Program-made: the position numbers and the translations under genes
DNA from: Chloroflexota bacterium
Lineage (GTDB): Bacteria > Chloroflexota > Anaerolineae > Anaerolineales > Villigracilaceae
Reading direction: 5' to 3'
Assembly: GCA_016223135.1 (NCBI GenBank)
Contig: JACRPQ010000004.1
Location: forward strand, 434,001 to 498,000
DNA: 64,000 nt
Shown here: positions 18,953 to 30,137 of the stretch, one piece after another
Layout of the letters: the number at the start of each line of letters is the position of its first letter
Position numbering within the stretch: position 1 is the first letter of the stretch
The notes under the pieces: generated by a model
The model's database searches: none
Told to the model about the DNA's origin: nothing
What the model saw: only the letters and a program-made list of their open reading frames with translations

Positions 18953-20040
18953 CTATGGAATTGGGATGTAAAATGGATTGGGGTTGGCGGCTGACCATAG
19001 ATATAGCGCCGCAGGATACCCAAATTGACTCATACAGTTCAAATATGGCCCGGATGTTCTTGGGTCAGTGACCTGATTCAGTCCAAACCCCGATACAGCA
19101 GGATTGACCGAAAGTGGGCTTAATCGATATGCGATGGCTTGGCTTCTGTAAGTGTCTGCGCCCCACTTAAAAACATCGAAGTATATTTGATCAAGTTGAT
19201 TTGAGTTATTGTATGCACTCTGTGTACTCTGTAGACTCCATGCATAATCTACTCCATACTGTTCTGCTTCAAGGCGCAACACTATTAATTCGTTTCCGGT
19301 TACACCAAGTGCTTTTGCTTCAAAGAACATTGCCCATCCTTGCCCGCCACCACCATAGGCTTCTTTACCTTGGTATAGTAGCCAGCCATCATTTATTGCC
19401 TGTAATACAGCCGCATCCATTACTTCAGTTGTACTGCCTTCTTGGGCAAAGCTTGGGTCATTAGCCATAAAATCAATTGCGCTTCCCATATCCGCAAACC
19501 AATCTTCAAGTTCAAGATTGCTTGTGCTACCAAACTCGGCTAACCATCGCCTTCTCTCTTCTCAACCCAATTTTTCGAAATCTTTGAGGGTCTTAGCAGT
19601 GGAATAGTCACGAACACACCCCATGCCCATTTCACAATCTACGCCATGACCAGAAGGGTCAGTAAATAGAATAGGGCTATTGTTAGCGTAAGCAAACCGA
19701 TCCCATGCTTGGACGCCTTGCGTTTGGGTCGGGACGATGGTGTCTGCCTGCGTGAAGCGTCCCGGCGACGGGTCGTATCCCCTCCACTTCGTTACGGGGA
19801 CGCTGCGCAGCCAGCAGGCATTGTAGAAGTACAGCCCCAGGCAGGTCTCGTTGCGCTGAGTGGTGAACTGGTAGGGGGTGTAGGTCATGTCGCTGGTGTA
19901 AAGCGTCTTGTCCTTGCGATGCACCCCCGTAGCAAAGCGAAGGGGGCAGGGTTTGTCTCTCAACTCTGAGACGATATTCCCGTTGGCATCGGTCATGAGG
20001 CTGGTGGTGCCAAGGCTTGTGCTAAGCATGGTCGAAAGGA
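18953..20040 (-). pseudogene. RHS core fragment 6 with 180-residue tip and in-frame TGA
   Basis: The core (GTTSLMTDANGNIVSELR, LYFYNACW, YDPSPGRFTQADT, FAYANNSPILFTDPSGHG) runs into a tip (VDCEMGMGCVRDYSTAKT). A TGA at 19562-19564 follows LKDFEKLG. The same frame continues without another stop (EERRRWLAEFGSTSNLELED ... PNPFYIPIP) to 18953, and there is no frameshift. This is the cleanest of the interrupted tips: one base change would restore it. Two small insertions are present, one after SELR and one (LRSVPVTKWRG) before YDPSPGR. No toxin family is recognised. Confidence 0.7.
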
Positions 20041-23993: not shown

Positions 23994-24036
23994 AAGAACA
24001 TCCCGCTCATCTGCGATGCCGGGATGTTCTTTTTAT
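23994..24036 (+). terminator. Rho-independent terminator between convergent genes
   Basis: A 10-bp stem (GAACATCCCG at 23996-24005 with CGGGATGTTC at 24020-24029) with a 14-nt loop is followed by TTTTTATT. It ends the DUF4173 gene. AA/TT flanks extend the stem, and it may also slow minus-strand transcription. Confidence 0.8.
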
Positions 24037-24401
24037 TGTGGAGGCTTAAGACGGGCAGTCAGGTCGCGCAGCTGCACGAAGGAGATGGGTTTGATCATGA
24101 CAAAGTCCACCATCTCGCTATAGGCTTCGCCCATGCGCGCATCGGCGGTGGTGATGATGATAAGGGTCTTTTCGAAGCGGGTGTCCTTTTTCAGGATGTC
24201 GGTCAGTATCTGCCCGCCGGAGATGTGAGGCAGGTGCATATCCAGCAGGATGAGATAAGGCGGCTCGCCGTACAGCAGACGCTCCTGTGCCTTTTTGCCG
24301 TCGGAGGCGTGTTCCACCGTGAAGCCCACGCCGCGCAGTGCCTCGGCGAAGATGTCTGCAAGGTCCAAATCATCTTCGATGATTAATGCCAGTTCGTTCA
24401 T
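24033..24401 (-). CDS. Single-domain response regulator (CheY-like receiver)
   Basis: 122 residues, receiver domain only. The acidic pocket is EDD near residues 9-11, the phospho-acceptor is Asp54 (LILLDMHLP), the Thr/Ser switch is in IITTAD, and Lys is in MIKPIS near residue 103. No output domain, so it must signal by protein contact or in a phosphorelay. It lies 31 bases after the histidine kinase stop, in the same operon, and is the likely partner of that kinase. Confidence 0.9.
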   Translation of the reverse strand: MNELALIIEDDLDLADIFAEALRGVGFTVEHASDGKKAQERLLYGEPPYLILLDMHLPHISGGQILTDILKKDTRFEKTLIIITTADARMGEAYSEMVDFVMIKPISFVQLRDLTARLKPPQ

Positions 24402-24432: not shown

Positions 24433-26127
24433 CTATGGCGGGGTGACCAGCGGCAGGGTGACGGTAAAGACGCTTCCCTGTCCCACTTCGCTTGCCGCTT
24501 TGATTTCGCCGTTCATCAAGTTTACCAGTTGTTTGACGATGGCAAGTCCCAGCCCAACGCCGCTGTGGGTGCGCGTGGTGCCCTCCTCCACCTGGCGGAA
24601 GGAGTCGAAGATGTGAGGCAGTTCGGAGCGAGGGATACCGCGCCCGGTGTCGGTCACTTCGATGCCCCATTTGCGAAATTCGGGGAGATGAAAAAGGCGG
24701 ATGCGGATTTCTCCCTGGTCGGTGAATTTGATGGCATTGGTGACGAGGTTGACGAGAATTTGTTCCAGGCGGGGACCATCGCCGATGATGGTTTCGGGGA
24801 GGCTGTCGTCCATTTCGCTGGTGATGCGCAGCTTTTTTTCGGCGGCGGTTTTATCGAGCAGGTTGTGAATCTGTTCGAGCAGTTCGGAGGGACGAACGGG
24901 TCCCATGTGAATGGTCAATTTGCCGGCTTCCATTTGCGCCTGGTCGAGCAGGTCGTTGATGAGCCCTAGCAGGCGGCGGGTGTTGCTGATGATGCGATTC
25001 GCCATGTTGACCTGCTTTTCGTTCATGGGACCATACACCTCTTCACGGAACATTTCGGCGTAGCCCAAAATGGCGTTGAGGGGGGTGCGCAGTTCATGCG
25101 AGACGATGGCAACGAAGGAACTCTTGAGTCTTTCCACCTCGGCTTCGCGGGTGAAGTCGCGGAAGACGGTGACAGTGCCAAGGTTGATGTTGCCCTCCTC
25201 CCGAAAGTCATAAACCTGTGCGGCGCTGACGGAGAGAGTCTTGTTTCCCCATTCGATACGGAAACTGAGGGGCTGGGTGTCGTGTTCGATCATGGCGTAG
25301 AGCAGTCCGCGGCTGCGCGCCGAGAGTTTGGGATGTTCGATGAGTTCGCGGAAGTTGCGGTTGACAATCAATTCCACCGGCAGGTCGAGCAGGCTGCGAA
25401 TGGCAGGGTTGACGAGGATGGCATTCCAGTTGCGGTCGAAGACGATGACGCCATCGGCGATGGAGTTGAGGATTGCCTGATTGCGTCCCGCTTCGAGGCG
25501 CTCGCGCGCCAGCGATTCTGCCAGAGCCTGAGTGCGTTGGTAAACGACTTGGTCGAGATTGGCGTTGATGACGCGCAGTTCATGCAGCGCTGATTCGAGG
25601 CTGCGGGCAGAGAGCCAGGAGACCAACGCCAGCAGGAAGAAACCGATGATGGCGAAAATGTTGACCGGCTGTTGAATGGAGAGCGCCAGTCCGGCAATGA
25701 TGCCGCTGCCCAGCAGGGCAAAGAGAAAACTCGCTTCGGGCAGTAAAATCAGGCTGGAGATGGCGATGGGGATGGTAAAGAGGAAGATGGAGCGCCCATT
25801 AGATAGTTGCGCTGGGGTGTCCATAGAGGTGAATACCAAGGTTAGCAATAGGAGATAGAGCAAAGATGCCCAGCGCCCAGAGAGCCTGCGGTTAATTTGA
25901 TAAATACCATAGCAGCCCAATGCCGCAACGAATGCGCCTCCCGCTAATACTACTGTTTCGAAGTTTGCCAGTTGATTAGCGAGGATGTTGCTGATTCCGA
26001 TTGCAAGAAAGCCCACCACTGCACCGGCAATGTTGCCAACCAGAATGATGTTGAGCAGCCGCCGCCGGCGGGCGTCGTCGGGGTCGGGGACTGAGACGTT
26101 AAGGATGGTATCCCAAAAGCGGTTCAT
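24433..26127 (-). CDS. Membrane-bound PAS sensor histidine kinase
   Basis: 564 residues. About six hydrophobic segments make up residues 20-190, followed by a short coiled linker. A PAS domain (about 210-320, ADGVIVFDRNWNAILVN) precedes HisKA with H-box VSHELRTPLNAILGY and HATPase_c with N-box NLVTNAIKFTD and G-boxes DTGRGI and GVGLGLAIV. The ATG is 3 bases from the stop of the diterpene cyclase gene, so it is transcribed with that cluster. It may sense membrane or metabolite state for the diterpenoid genes, or may simply be co-transcribed. Confidence 0.9.
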   Translation of the reverse strand: MNRFWDTILNVSVPDPDDARRRRLLNIILVGNIAGAVVGFLAIGISNILANQLANFETVVLAGGAFVAALGCYGIYQINRRLSGRWASLLYLLLLTLVFTSMDTPAQLSNGRSIFLFTIPIAISSLILLPEASFLFALLGSGIIAGLALSIQQPVNIFAIIGFFLLALVSWLSARSLESALHELRVINANLDQVVYQRTQALAESLARERLEAGRNQAILNSIADGVIVFDRNWNAILVNPAIRSLLDLPVELIVNRNFRELIEHPKLSARSRGLLYAMIEHDTQPLSFRIEWGNKTLSVSAAQVYDFREEGNINLGTVTVFRDFTREAEVERLKSSFVAIVSHELRTPLNAILGYAEMFREEVYGPMNEKQVNMANRIISNTRRLLGLINDLLDQAQMEAGKLTIHMGPVRPSELLEQIHNLLDKTAAEKKLRITSEMDDSLPETIIGDGPRLEQILVNLVTNAIKFTDQGEIRIRLFHLPEFRKWGIEVTDTGRGIPRSELPHIFDSFRQVEEGTTRTHSGVGLGLAIVKQLVNLMNGEIKAASEVGQGSVFTVTLPLVTPP

Positions 26128-26130
26128 GGT

Positions 26131-27603
26131 TTATCCCGTGAGCGCCAGGGCGCTGATGACGGCAGAGCGCACGACGAGGGTGGGGCTGTAAAGGCATTTC
26201 CCAATCCAGAGCGGAGGGTAGGGAAGGTCGAGATTTTCTTTGAGCCAGCGTGCGCCGTTGAGCAGTGCGCTTCGAGGCACACGGCCGGCTTTTTGATCCC
26301 ACACCCAAAGCGCCTGAAGGGCATAGGCGGTCTCTTCGGCGGTGGGGAGGTAGGCGCCCCAAGCGCCGCTGCGGTTCTGGGTTTTGAGAATCCATTCGAC
26401 CGATTCAGCAACCAGTTCGTTTTCTACGCCGGCGCAGGCGATGATGGCGTGGGCGGTAGCATAGTAGGGCGAGGCGTGCCATTTATCTGCCCAGAAAGGG
26501 AATTGTCGGTCGCGGCTGCGGTGCAGAAAGCCCAGCACTTTTTGCACGGAGGCGTTGTTTCGTCCAAAGCCTGCGTGAAGAAAAGCATCAAGAATATGAA
26601 TATTGGTGCTGATGGAGGGGTTCGCTTCCAGATCAAAACAACGGAAGTGATCTTCCTCTTCGTATGCTAAAACACTGGCGAGGTCTTTTTCGATACCAAA
26701 ACGCAGAAGGGCGTTGTAGGTAACGACAGTGTCGTCGCTGTCTTTGACGGAATAAGCAGTGGAAAACGCGACGCCGCGCTTGGGTTCCCAAGTGTTGGAG
26801 AGAAATTCAAGGTGTGATTTGAGCTTTTCTGTGTAATTCAACCCCGGAATCAAGCTCAGATTCCAGAGCGCCCAGGCGGTTTCAAACACGTCGAAGGGGG
26901 CGACGTTGGGCATGCCGCCGTCGGGGTTGATGACCTTTCGCAGGTAGTTTAGGGCAGGCGGGTCGCCGGGGCGGATGTAGGCGGCAAAGTAGGCGGTGGC
27001 GGATGGGCTGGTGCCTACCGAGCCGTTGCTCTCTTGCAGGTTTTCGATGTCGAGCATGTGTTGACCGTCGCTGCCTGCCATTTCGGCAGAGAATGCCATA
27101 GTGACGCAGCGGTTGATGGTTTTGCCCTGCAGGTAAGCGAGTTTTTTGGCGCGCATTTGGGAAAGCCGCCCGAGGATGCGATCGCGCTGGTTTTTGATGA
27201 GACCCAGTCTTTCGGCTTCCTCTGCCAGGACGGGAGCGATCATTTCAAAGCCGACGGTGGCTCCGTTTGGGTCTGCTTGCAGCCCCGTTGTGGCATTTCC
27301 TACAATTTGCTCAAGGGCAAGTCTGCCCTTTTCAATTTGCGCCTTGTCGTGTTCGCGGCGTCCGTGGTAGGTGAGGGCGATCATGGCGGCGAGGGTGGAG
27401 AGGACGCGGTCGTGGTAGTAGAGCGGCGCAGGCGCGCCCCATGAGCCGTCGGGCAGTTGGTTTTCAGCCAGCCAGCAGAGCGAGTGGTTGCTGATTTCCG
27501 GTTCAATCTCGCCCAGCCGCGCCGCCCAGGCGGTGTCGTAGGCGGTGCTTGCCATGTGACCAGGTCCAAGTTCTTCGAGGAGTTGGGTGATGAGGTTTGT
27601 CAT
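26131..27603 (-). CDS. Class II diterpene cyclase (Rv3377c / kolavenyl-diphosphate synthase type)
   Basis: 490 residues. The family signature STAYDTAWAARL (residues 19-30) is followed by LPDGSWG (50-56) and the general-acid motif DSDD at residues 288-291 (VKDSDDTVVTYNALL). DxDD enzymes protonate geranylgeranyl diphosphate and cyclise it to a bicyclic diphosphate while keeping the diphosphate group. Length is close to the M. tuberculosis enzyme (about 500). There is no DDxxD class I motif. It overlaps the next enzyme gene upstream by 4 bases (ATGA), so the two are translationally coupled. The exact product (halimadienyl, kolavenyl or labdanyl type) cannot be read. Confidence 0.88.
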   Translation of the reverse strand: MTNLITQLLEELGPGHMASTAYDTAWAARLGEIEPEISNHSLCWLAENQLPDGSWGAPAPLYYHDRVLSTLAAMIALTYHGRREHDKAQIEKGRLALEQIVGNATTGLQADPNGATVGFEMIAPVLAEEAERLGLIKNQRDRILGRLSQMRAKKLAYLQGKTINRCVTMAFSAEMAGSDGQHMLDIENLQESNGSVGTSPSATAYFAAYIRPGDPPALNYLRKVINPDGGMPNVAPFDVFETAWALWNLSLIPGLNYTEKLKSHLEFLSNTWEPKRGVAFSTAYSVKDSDDTVVTYNALLRFGIEKDLASVLAYEEEDHFRCFDLEANPSISTNIHILDAFLHAGFGRNNASVQKVLGFLHRSRDRQFPFWADKWHASPYYATAHAIIACAGVENELVAESVEWILKTQNRSGAWGAYLPTAEETAYALQALWVWDQKAGRVPRSALLNGARWLKENLDLPYPPLWIGKCLYSPTLVVRSAVISALALTG

Positions 27604-28508
27604 GATGCGTTTTCGATGTCAGGGAACCACAGGTTGGATTTGAGTTTGCCGACGCCGAGGGCATGGTCGCGGCGGGCGCGGTAGTATGTTCTCAGCCAGT
27701 CGAGTTCTTCAGCGGATAATTGGGTGTAATCGGGCTCGGGGATGCGCCGCAGGTAGAGATGGTCGTAGAGGATGCTCCGCAGTTGACGCTCGGTCATGTA
27801 GGGGGATGGGCTGACGGAGAAGTACAGGTCTTCTTCGCCGTTGGAGAGCAGAGGCATGTCGAAGACGCTGAATTTGTCGAAGCCGATGAACAGGCTGACG
27901 GGGGGCAGGTCTTCGCCGTAGTAGGCGCGGATGAGGGCATTTTTGTCGGGGATGGAATTGTAGGCGAGATAATGTTCCACAGAGAGACGGGCAATGGTCT
28001 CGGCGGCATCGTCGGCGAAGACGCCGAAGTAAAGGTTATGGGCGGTGTTGCGCTGGGTGGCTTCCATGACTTCGTAGAGCGCGCCCAGCACATACTCGAA
28101 GGGTGTGTCTTTCAATACGTCGTAGTAGTCGCCATAGAAGCGGACGCGGACGTTGTATTGCTCGAAGAAGTCGCGGTAGGCGCGGTCGGTGGTGGTGCGG
28201 ACGAGCCCATCCATGCCGACGCGTTTGGTGTATTCATCGCCGCGCCGCATGAGTTCGCGCCCAAAGACCGGGGCAAGCAGGGTGTGGATGCCGTGGTCGA
28301 ACAGCATGGCGCAGAGGTGGACGTGGTTTTGGATGGAGACGTCGAGGTAGGCGGAGAAGAAGTCGCCGCTGATTTTGTCGGCGTGTTCGAGGACGAACCA
28401 GCGCCGCGTGCCGTTGACGGGGAAGGCGACCACTTTTTGCCCGCTGGCTTGCACGAGCGCAGCGACCTCTTTGGCAGGGAGTTCGAGGAAGCGCTCGAGG
28501 GGAATCAT
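27600..28508 (-). CDS. Rv3378c-type diterpene synthase (tuberculosinol / kolavelool synthase family)
   Basis: 302 residues from the ATG at 28508 (Rv3378c is about 296). It has a cis-prenyltransferase fold with strong matches, as I recall them, to Rv3378c: NGTRRWF near residue 32, FDHGIHTLLAPVF, YFGVFADDAAETIARLS, FIGFDKFSVFDMPLLS, YMTERQLRSILYDHLYLR. These enzymes act on the bicyclic diphosphate made by the DxDD cyclase, adding water or adenosine. The Asp usual before GxRRW is Asn32 here. It overlaps both the methyltransferase stop (ATGA) and the cyclase start (ATGA). This pair is rare outside pathogenic mycobacteria and a few others such as Herpetosiphon. Confidence 0.88.
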   Translation of the reverse strand: MIPLERFLELPAKEVAALVQASGQKVVAFPVNGTRRWFVLEHADKISGDFFSAYLDVSIQNHVHLCAMLFDHGIHTLLAPVFGRELMRRGDEYTKRVGMDGLVRTTTDRAYRDFFEQYNVRVRFYGDYYDVLKDTPFEYVLGALYEVMEATQRNTAHNLYFGVFADDAAETIARLSVEHYLAYNSIPDKNALIRAYYGEDLPPVSLFIGFDKFSVFDMPLLSNGEEDLYFSVSPSPYMTERQLRSILYDHLYLRRIPEPDYTQLSAEELDWLRTYYRARRDHALGVGKLKSNLWFPDIENAS

Positions 28509-29092
28509 CGGCTCCTCGTCAGGCGAGGCAGGAATCGGGGAGTCCGACGCGCGTAGTCCGCGTAGCCGGGCAGGGTGCGGGTGAGCAGGTCCTCTTCCTG
28601 ACGGGCGGCGCGGGTGAAGTCCCAAATTGTGTAAAGGAGCGCCGCAAGAGTGGGGATGGATGGGTTGATGAGAAAAAGTCCGCTTGCGATGCCAAAAAAA
28701 GAGGTGATGACAGGATGACGCATGAGTTTGTAGGGACCCGTATCTATGACCTGATGCCCCGGCTGGACCTCGACGCGCTCGGCGTAGTAGTGCTGCAGGT
28801 GTGTGCGCGCCCAGATGTGCAGGGCAAAGGCGATAAGAATCAAAAATGCCCCCGCAAGTTGGGGAATTAGTCCCCACGGGGAGGCAGTGCGGTAACTCAA
28901 AATGGGGAGCAGGGTGGGCTGCAGGATGAGGAGGGCGGCAAGCAGAAAGATGAAAAGGGTGAAATCCCAAGCGCGCCCGGAGCCGCTTGCCTGCCGCTGT
29001 TTGTCGTAGCGGCGGATGAGAAGGAAATCCACGCTGTAGAAGAGAAGAATGGCGAGAAGGGTAGCAGCCGATTGGATGAGACCGGTCAGCAT
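28505..29092 (-). CDS. Membrane methyltransferase, isoprenylcysteine-carboxyl-methyltransferase-like
   Basis: 195 residues from the ATG at 29092. About five transmembrane helices, then the ICMT/PEMT family motif VIDTGPYKLMRHPVITSFF (SAM-binding) and the C-terminal EEDLLTRTLPGYADYARRTPRFLP. The family methylates lipid-like or isoprenoid substrates at the membrane. In this operon the likely substrate is the diterpene alcohol or a related product, giving a methyl ether; in Herpetosiphon aurantiacus a methyltransferase next to the homologous pair makes O-methylkolavelool. The substrate here is inferred from context. Confidence 0.82.
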   Translation of the reverse strand: MLTGLIQSAATLLAILLFYSVDFLLIRRYDKQRQASGSGRAWDFTLFIFLLAALLILQPTLLPILSYRTASPWGLIPQLAGAFLILIAFALHIWARTHLQHYYAERVEVQPGHQVIDTGPYKLMRHPVITSFFGIASGLFLINPSIPTLAALLYTIWDFTRAARQEEDLLTRTLPGYADYARRTPRFLPRLTRSR

Positions 29093-29099
29093 ATCCCTC

Positions 29100-30137
29100 T
29101 CACTCTTTGGACGCCACACGCTTCGTGGCGCGCGGCAACAGTCTTGCCATGCTGATCATGGCGTGGTTGGTGTCTTCGAGATGGAAACCGAGGCGGCGTT
29201 TGACATCGTAGGCGCCGCTGCCGAAACGGACGAGGCGCACTTTATGCTCGAAGGCTTCCTGCAAGGCGGCGTAGAGCAGGAGGAAGTAGCCGCCGGGGAC
29301 ATCGTCCTCCAGCCCGAGGGAGGAGGTGAGTTGGAATTTGTTGTCGCGCAACACTGCGCCGCAGCCAACGAGTTTGCCGTCCTTGCGCAGTTCGAGCCAG
29401 GTGCCGTCGGTGAGAGAGAAATTTTCGAGCAGGTTGCGGGTCCATGGGTTGGGAGCCGAACCGTGCCAGATGGAAACGTTGTGAATGAGTTTGAGTGCGG
29501 CATCCACATCGGGGACGGTTCTATGCCGCTGGAGTTCGATGCCGTTTTCTGAGGTCTCTTTGAGCGTGCGTTTGTAGTGCTGGCGGTCTTTTTTGTTGCC
29601 GGCTTCGAGGTACTCCTCGAAACTATCCCAAACAATAGGCATATACGTGCCGGGTTCGGAGATGGTGATGGGTTCGTAACCGGGGGGCCAGGACTTATAA
29701 CGGAGTTGTTCGGTGAGCAGGTAGTCGAAGATGAGGAAGGAACAGCGCTGCCTTTTGAATTCCTCCTGCGCGGCGATTGCCAGCGCCGCAAGCGCTTCGT
29801 CCCGTTTGGGTTCGCCGGGCAGCAACAGCGCGGATGTATCTGCCATGGGCGAACGACAAACCAGCAGAGGTTTGTGCTTCAAGATGGATGCCATGAATTC
29901 ACGGGCGACCTTGGGCAGGGGCAGCGGTTCGTTCTTGACCCGGAACAGCGCCGCGGCAGCGATGGGCGTTTTCCCCTCCCAGGCAATCAGGTAAGTAGGT
30001 GGGCAGTCTTTCATGACGCGCTCGCCGAAGGTGTACCATTGATGGCTTTGAAAGCCGCGCTCTGCGGCGATTTGATTCCACGTTTCGGCGTCAATTTCGG
30101 CGATGCTTTTGTATTTTGTTATTTCCAGTGTGCTCAT
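29100..30137 (-). CDS. GNAT/BioF2-FemAB-like acyltransferase
   Basis: 345 residues. The two-lobed GNAT layout is visible, with the BioF2/Acetyltransf_6 region around residues 150-300 (NKKDRQHYKRTLKE, WLELRKDGKLVGCGAVLRD, YFLLLYAALQEAFEHKVRLV). FemAB-type enzymes move aminoacyl or acyl groups to peptidoglycan or lipids. It is the first gene of the minus-strand operon and stops 7 bases before the methyltransferase start. It could act in envelope maintenance or decorate the diterpenoid product; sequence does not decide. Confidence 0.8.
   Translation of the reverse strand: MSTLEITKYKSIAEIDAETWNQIAAERGFQSHQWYTFGERVMKDCPPTYLIAWEGKTPIAAAALFRVKNEPLPLPKVAREFMASILKHKPLLVCRSPMADTSALLLPGEPKRDEALAALAIAAQEEFKRQRCSFLIFDYLLTEQLRYKSWPPGYEPITISEPGTYMPIVWDSFEEYLEAGNKKDRQHYKRTLKETSENGIELQRHRTVPDVDAALKLIHNVSIWHGSAPNPWTRNLLENFSLTDGTWLELRKDGKLVGCGAVLRDNKFQLTSSLGLEDDVPGGYFLLLYAALQEAFEHKVRLVRFGSGAYDVKRRLGFHLEDTNHAMISMARLLPRATKRVASKE

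Follow-up and report, generated by a model that had tools for sequence, protein, structure and literature searches.

The stretch of DNA analysed here, called the window throughout, comprises 64,000 nucleotides of a Chloroflexota bacterium of the family Villigracilaceae (assembly GCA_016223135.1, contig JACRPQ010000004.1, positions 434,001 to 498,000). On its minus strand it carries a six-gene operon in which a FemAB-like protein and a membrane methyltransferase precede relatives of the Mycobacterium tuberculosis diterpene enzymes Rv3378c and Rv3377c, followed by a histidine kinase and a response regulator. We consider it probable that this operon directs the synthesis of a bicyclic diterpenoid, which is then decorated, and that the pathway has a two-component system of its own. 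The features are as follows (window coordinates):

29100-30137, minus strand: FemAB-like/GNAT (Acetyltransf_6) protein, 345 amino acids, first gene of the operon (Pfam PF13480, E 7e-5; FemAB_like, E 1e-3)
28505-29092, minus strand: predicted ICMT-family membrane methyltransferase, 195 amino acids (PF04140; PDB 4a2n)
28505-28508, minus strand: ATGA overlap of the methyltransferase and synthase genes, read from the sequence
27600-28508, minus strand: Rv3378c-type diterpene synthase/transferase with a cis-prenyltransferase fold, 302 amino acids (Rv3378c in the PDB; Foldseek 3wqk)
27600-27603, minus strand: ATGA overlap of the synthase and cyclase genes, read from the sequence
26131-27603, minus strand: predicted class II diterpene cyclase of the Rv3377c subfamily with a DSDD motif, 490 amino acids (PDB 6vpt)
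24433-26127, minus strand: histidine kinase, 564 amino acids, with a six-helix membrane sensor (about residues 1-200), PAS, HisKA and HATPase domains (Pfam; sensor model)
24033-24401, minus strand: receiver-only response regulator, 122 amino acids (PF00072, E 2e-12)

The source assembly measures 3.82 Mb (completeness 98.4%, contamination 0.5%) and the contig 1.06 Mb. In the synthase and cyclase trees the nearest relatives of the window proteins come from Anaerolineales bins, in agreement with the Chloroflexota host proposed in the initial annotation of this DNA. That annotation had also described three genes joined by 4-bp ATGA overlaps, which are indeed present at both junctions, and a membrane methyltransferase among them, which proved to be ICMT-like with a PF04140 score above the cut-off. 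The histidine kinase gene starts 3 bp past the cyclase stop. The six genes form one operon, and their arrangement is not due to chance, since the same order is found in tens of Anaerolineae genomes. Promoter and terminator scans of the locus were uninformative.

The 302-amino-acid protein is a relative of Rv3378c, not an undecaprenyl synthase. In a phmmer search of the PDB, Rv3378c was its sole match (3wqk, 245 bits, E 1e-71, residues 5-296). When its AlphaFold model (predicted local distance difference test, pLDDT, 76) was submitted to Foldseek, the top matches were all Rv3378c (3wqk, E 1.8e-28, template modelling score 0.80), with UppS-type enzymes ranking after them; the Rv3378c-like identity first read from the sequence is thereby borne out by sequence and by fold. 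The alternative that the initial annotation had itself singled out, an ordinary UppS (a chain-elongating cis-prenyltransferase), was rejected: a Pfam scan of the protein gave no match, Prenyltransf (PF01255) included, an Asn stands in place of the catalytic Asp, and the genome has its own UppS on another contig. The window synthase is 42% identical to Rv3378c and 24% to the Herpetosiphon kolavelool synthase. Its residues Y54, Y93, R35 and R36 correspond to Rv3378c Y51, Y90, R37 and R38, which are conserved in 89, 91, 92 and 92 of 93 family members, respectively; Y51F and Y51F/Y90F are the mutants named in the titles of PDB entries 3wqn and 4kt8.

Where cis-prenyltransferases have their catalytic Asp and Rv3378c has D34, the window synthase has N32, mycobacteria have Asp and the Herpetosiphon kolavelool synthase has Gly. 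Asn is found in all 18 members of an alignment from an unbiased search (A1), which is the fair sample; the count of 79 in 93 is biased upward, as the genome-contig scan used a pattern containing Asn. The Asn of the window and of A1 and the Gly of the Herpetosiphon enzyme indicate that the Asp is dispensable for the family, and we rejected it as a strict hallmark. The replacement of D34 by Asn suggests that acceptor choice may differ from that of Rv3378c, and the Asp on the mycobacterial branch offers a possible lead on this choice.

The cyclase matched 6vpt in the PDB with 448 bits (E 3e-133) and is 46.7% identical to Rv3377c, 34% to PtmT2 and 27.6% to Haur_2145 of Herpetosiphon aurantiacus. 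Its DSDD lies within SVKDSDDTV, the equivalents of Rv3377c D295 (the central Asp), Tyr479 and Trp380 are kept, position 475 is a Gly, and the protein groups in the clade containing Rv3377c. Judged by these features, it is a member of the Rv3377c subfamily of class II diterpene cyclases, and its earlier description as a DxDD cyclase of the Rv3377c type stands. In the Tpn2 paper (PMC9814783), this subfamily (Y479, mostly Gly at 475) is assigned mainly to halimanes and counts 126 terrabacterial members, 44% of them with Rv3378c equivalents. Subfamily membership, Tyr479 and Gly475 make a halimane (tuberculosinol-type) alcohol our best guess for the product. A gene resembling geranylgeranyl diphosphate synthase (GGPPS) is present in the genome.

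The ICMT-like protein scored 43.3 bits against PF04140 (curated cut-off 24), matched PDB 4a2n with an E value of 2e-7 and carries GPY..RHP and EE motifs that are invariant in 16 homologues. With a domain score above the cut-off and the motifs of the S-adenosylmethionine (SAM) site, it belongs to the ICMT family, and it probably O-methylates the predicted halimane alcohol. Tailoring genes vary between loci: upstream of the synthase, an ICMT-like gene is found in 24 loci, a sulfotransferase in 11 and a FemAB gene in 39, in varying combinations. A GT87-like membrane glycosyltransferase also occurs at this place; all 15 scanned members match PF09594 (best 3.7e-11), and no relative of this family was found in the PDB by sequence. 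Of these upstream enzymes, the ICMT-like, GT87-like and sulfotransferase ones are the better defined, and each would fit a substrate with a hydroxyl group; the shared intermediate is therefore more likely to be a free diterpene alcohol. In four loci, small membrane proteins (no Pfam family where scanned) replace the known tailoring genes directly 5' of the synthase (L132:1122-1688, L134:6913-7485, L090:7346-7954 and L140:954-1580).

Neighbourhood clustering of the named loci from GTDB genomes and of whole-genome matches revealed a fixed order of synthase, cyclase, kinase and receiver. Locus L104, of Longilinea arvoryzae KOME-1, encodes these four and a FemAB protein. In the 60 loci whose downstream flank measured 4.2 kb or more, the cyclase is present in 53, the kinase in 54, the receiver in 49, and the full set on one strand in 47, with median gaps of 3 bp (cyclase-kinase) and -1 bp (kinase-receiver). 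The membrane sensor of the kinase, scored with profile A2 at >190 bits in the 152 genomes of the family, occurs in 50 of the 53 that bear the synthase versus 4 of the 99 that do not (Fisher p 1.5e-31, a value inflated by the kinship of the genomes). Sensor and synthase are no more than 4 kb apart on a single contig in 47 of these 50 genomes and on separate contigs in the remaining 3; this adjacency, kept across many genera, is a stronger argument than the p value. At the class level, the synthase family is found in 43 of 346 genomes and 32 of 203 genera. The histidine kinase and the receiver thus belong to the conserved core of the diterpenoid system. The initial annotation was right that coupling to a kinase and a FemAB protein is absent from the described clusters; the kinase and receiver are nevertheless not the oddity it took them for but, in 47 of 60 loci, part of this core.

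In L106 (contig G016:C38), from the genus of the window, the synthase and cyclase are 47-50% identical to those of the window, whereas the FemAB protein, kinase and receiver are 66-73% identical. The contrast suggests that the synthase-cyclase pair moves as a cassette, exchanged in place. Four further loci (L189, L190, L191 and L192) encode a kinase with the same sensor, and in two cases the receiver, with no synthase or cyclase nearby; their genomes lack the synthase, and the idea that the kinase always lies near a cyclase was rejected on these four cases. Three genomes of one genus (L193, L194 and L195) have an additional copy of the sensor domain, joined there to a kinase of another kind.

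In the mechanism that we propose, geranylgeranyl diphosphate (GGPP) would be supplied by a housekeeping trans-prenyltransferase and protonated by the DSDD motif of the cyclase, with ring closure to a tuberculosinyl diphosphate of the halimane type. This diphosphate would then be ionised by the Rv3378c-type enzyme, and water, or less likely another acceptor, would capture the cation to give a tuberculosinol-like alcohol, on which the membrane ICMT-like enzyme would place a methyl ether cap. The FemAB protein may attach an acyl or aminoacyl group, and the histidine kinase, with its six-helix membrane domain, and the receiver would be the dedicated partner of the pathway. The gene content and its evolution are well supported, the product is predicted from the enzyme families and the signalling role is proposed tentatively.

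Several points weigh against this scheme. Four genomes hold the sensor kinase but no synthase, mycobacteria carry the synthase-cyclase pair without the kinase, and for the receiver neither an output domain nor a conserved target was found. Nor does the kinase have to be specific for a single product, since in L106 the synthase pair has diverged while the kinase has stayed close to that of the window. The ICMT-family enzyme could methylate something else, and the skeleton made by a class II cyclase is, according to the Tpn2 paper, not reliably predictable from sequence (PMC9814783).

What might the kinase sense? Its residues 1-209 were modelled as six helices (pLDDT 91). A Foldseek search with this model gave no significant match. 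When chains ranked by Foldseek were compared with VIA-align, the adenylyl cyclases AC9 and AC8, Pseudomonas aeruginosa ImcA and M. tuberculosis Rv1625c led, above unrelated rows, with Z of 8.8-10.7 over 159-186 residues, values that are at most suggestive for helical domains. The membrane anchor of Rv1625c and the quorum sensor CqsS are reported to have the same six-transmembrane design, and a chimera to respond to the lipophilic CAI-1 (PMC4821796, PMC12414865). The likeness of our sensor to adenylyl cyclase anchors, together with the design these share with CqsS, makes a lipid-sensing role reasonable, and the kinase may sense the diterpenoid itself. In Vibrio, cqsA and cqsS are adjacent. The operon resembles this system in that synthase genes lie beside a histidine kinase with a six-helix membrane domain and that the predicted product is lipophilic; it differs in that the synthases are unrelated, the regulator here is a separate receiver-only protein and the ligand is a putative one.

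There is nearly an even chance that kinase and receiver form an ordinary regulatory pair, which lies in the same operon as the pathway genes but responds to the envelope or growth state, not to the diterpenoid. The receiver-only regulator, the kinase-bearing genomes without synthase and the retention of the kinase in L106 although the pair was swapped are all consistent with this, and structural matches of helical bundles are weak evidence. However, the order and co-occurrence of the module are retained across the family and the class, and the sensor model does resemble six-helix adenylyl cyclase membrane domains, whose design recurs in a receptor for a lipophilic ligand. A more far-reaching version of the proposed dedicated partnership, which we hold to be unlikely, is that the whole module serves diterpenoid signalling: the pair would make a lipophilic autoinducer, interchangeable tailoring would set its head group (methyl, sugar or sulfate), the kinase would read it and phosphorylate the receiver, and mycobacteria would have taken the pair without the sensor.

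The second issue is the origin of the mycobacterial pair. A 2024 study reported that no orthologues of Rv3376, Rv3377c or Rv3378c could be found beyond the mycobacteria and suggested that the tuberculosis terpene-nucleoside genes came from a plant-associated plasmid (PMC11476799); none of the papers searched names Rv3378c together with Chloroflexota. The nearest sequences by identity are all from Anaerolineales (50.7% between Rv3378c and L106; 54.6% and 54.2% between Rv3377c and L106 and L112, respectively). The trees took in M. tuberculosis and a mycobacterium-like genome, G684, whose pair shows 70% and 76% identity and has genes resembling dxs, lytB and GGPPS as neighbours. The group L106/L112/L138 is sister to the mycobacteria with the synthase (99/99), the cyclase (85/85, inside 97/94) and the concatenation (100/100, inside 100/99). 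Forcing the mycobacteria outside Chloroflexota was rejected by the approximately unbiased (AU) test for the synthase (p 0.0175) and the concatenation (p 0.0024) but not for the cyclase alone (p 0.133), p values that are somewhat generous because the groups were named after a quick tree had been looked at. The nesting of the mycobacterial pair inside Anaerolineales sequences is well supported by these phylogenies. A plasmid origin was rejected: tblastn of the synthase against 72,556 plasmids gave no homologue, and the cyclase matches reached only about 30% identity (rhizobia) or 34% (Streptomyces), the rhizobial ones being taken for gibberellin-type enzymes after PMC9814783.

A rather unlikely alternative to this nesting is that the mycobacterial and Anaerolineales pairs both derive from an unsampled third group, which would make the nesting a sampling artefact. 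The profile search covered only 396 Actinomycetota, in which the other matches were of a distant Rubrobacter-type group, and 399 genomes from the order to which G684 belongs, in which G684 alone had a synthase homologue. The patterns used on genome contigs were weighted towards Asn at position 32, so that sequences of the M. tuberculosis kind would escape them, and the cyclase taken by itself did not reject the constraint. Against this, all three trees return the same sister group, both best identities point to L106, and the plasmids hold no synthase homologue. An Rv3378c-type gene also occurs outside Chloroflexota in Legionella erythra (L134:8004-10575); the neighbouring cyclase, on the opposite strand, is split into two separate open frames and is probably broken. 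Identical synthase and cyclase sequences in Rubrobacteraceae and Pyrinomonadaceae bins from one study (L147 and L148) are probably a binning error, and at L148:3136-4968 a GGDEF-EAL protein adjoins the Rubrobacter-type cyclase.

The only characterised Chloroflexota case that we found in the literature is that of Herpetosiphon (PMC4902038), and the initial annotation had related the window to its three-gene cluster. Haur_2145-2147 of H. aurantiacus, which make O-methylkolavelool, likewise comprise a class II cyclase, a synthase of the cis-prenyltransferase fold and a methyltransferase in a Chloroflexota host, and a hybrid kinase and receivers also flank them. However, membership in that cluster was not borne out and was rejected: the cyclases and synthases belong to distant clades (27.6% and 24% identity), the gene order is reversed with the kinase upstream, and the Herpetosiphon methyltransferase (locus L181) is a soluble class I SAM enzyme (Pfam CMAS/Methyltransf_11) unrelated to ICMT. 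A hybrid kinase and receiver lie directly upstream of the O-methylkolavelool genes (L181:2169-4905), and likewise in L187, from a second genome of that family. The Herpetosiphon-family kinases reach only 19-20 bits against the window sensor, a similarity too weak for us to claim the same sensor.

A clerodane route of the Herpetosiphon kind, from kolavenyl diphosphate through kolavelool to O-methylkolavelool, is accordingly improbable for the window. The same three activities are encoded in the sole characterised case that we found in the phylum, and the cations that lead to halimanes and to clerodanes lie next to each other in a single cascade (PMC9814783). Nevertheless, the synthase and cyclase lie near Rv3378c and Rv3377c (46.7% versus 27.6% identity for the cyclase), in clades apart from those of Herpetosiphon (support 100 for the synthase), which makes a halimane likelier than a clerodane, and the methyltransferases are not homologous and the gene orders differ.

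With the M. tuberculosis Rv3377c-Rv3378c system (tuberculosinol and 1-tuberculosinyladenosine), the window shares both enzyme families as adjacent genes (47% and 42% identity) with the catalytic Tyr, Arg and Asp retained; it differs by its ICMT, FemAB, kinase and receiver genes and by the Asn at D34. That the window synthase instead joins the diterpenyl group to adenosine or some other nucleophile, the methyltransferase acting on the conjugate or on something unrelated, is quite improbable. Rv3378c does make 1-tuberculosinyladenosine (PMC11476799) and nests in the family of the window synthase, but the O-methylation, glycosylation and sulfation genes adjoining the synthase suit a free alcohol, and the Asp of mycobacteria versus the Asn of their nearest Anaerolineales relatives at position 34 points to a possible change of acceptor specificity on the branch leading to mycobacteria. 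Elsewhere in the window, a short open reading frame at 19562-20029 is similar to an RHS-repeat core fragment.

In conclusion, the enzyme pair was already known, and what appears to be new is the setting of its predicted Rv3377c/Rv3378c chemistry, in a conserved operon that also encodes a membrane sensor kinase. Neither the kinase-receiver module nor the clusters of Anaerolineales nor the nesting of the mycobacterial genes is described in the available part of the Tpn2 survey (PMC9814783). Anaerolineae commonly carry the pair, and the mycobacterial genes branch from within theirs, so that the question of their origin can be tested directly; the Anaerolineae relatives are also available for comparing acceptor choice. 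Finally, the conserved sensor kinase suggests that the system may originally have served signalling or self-monitoring, a proposal that can be put to the test in Longilinea arvoryzae KOME-1.

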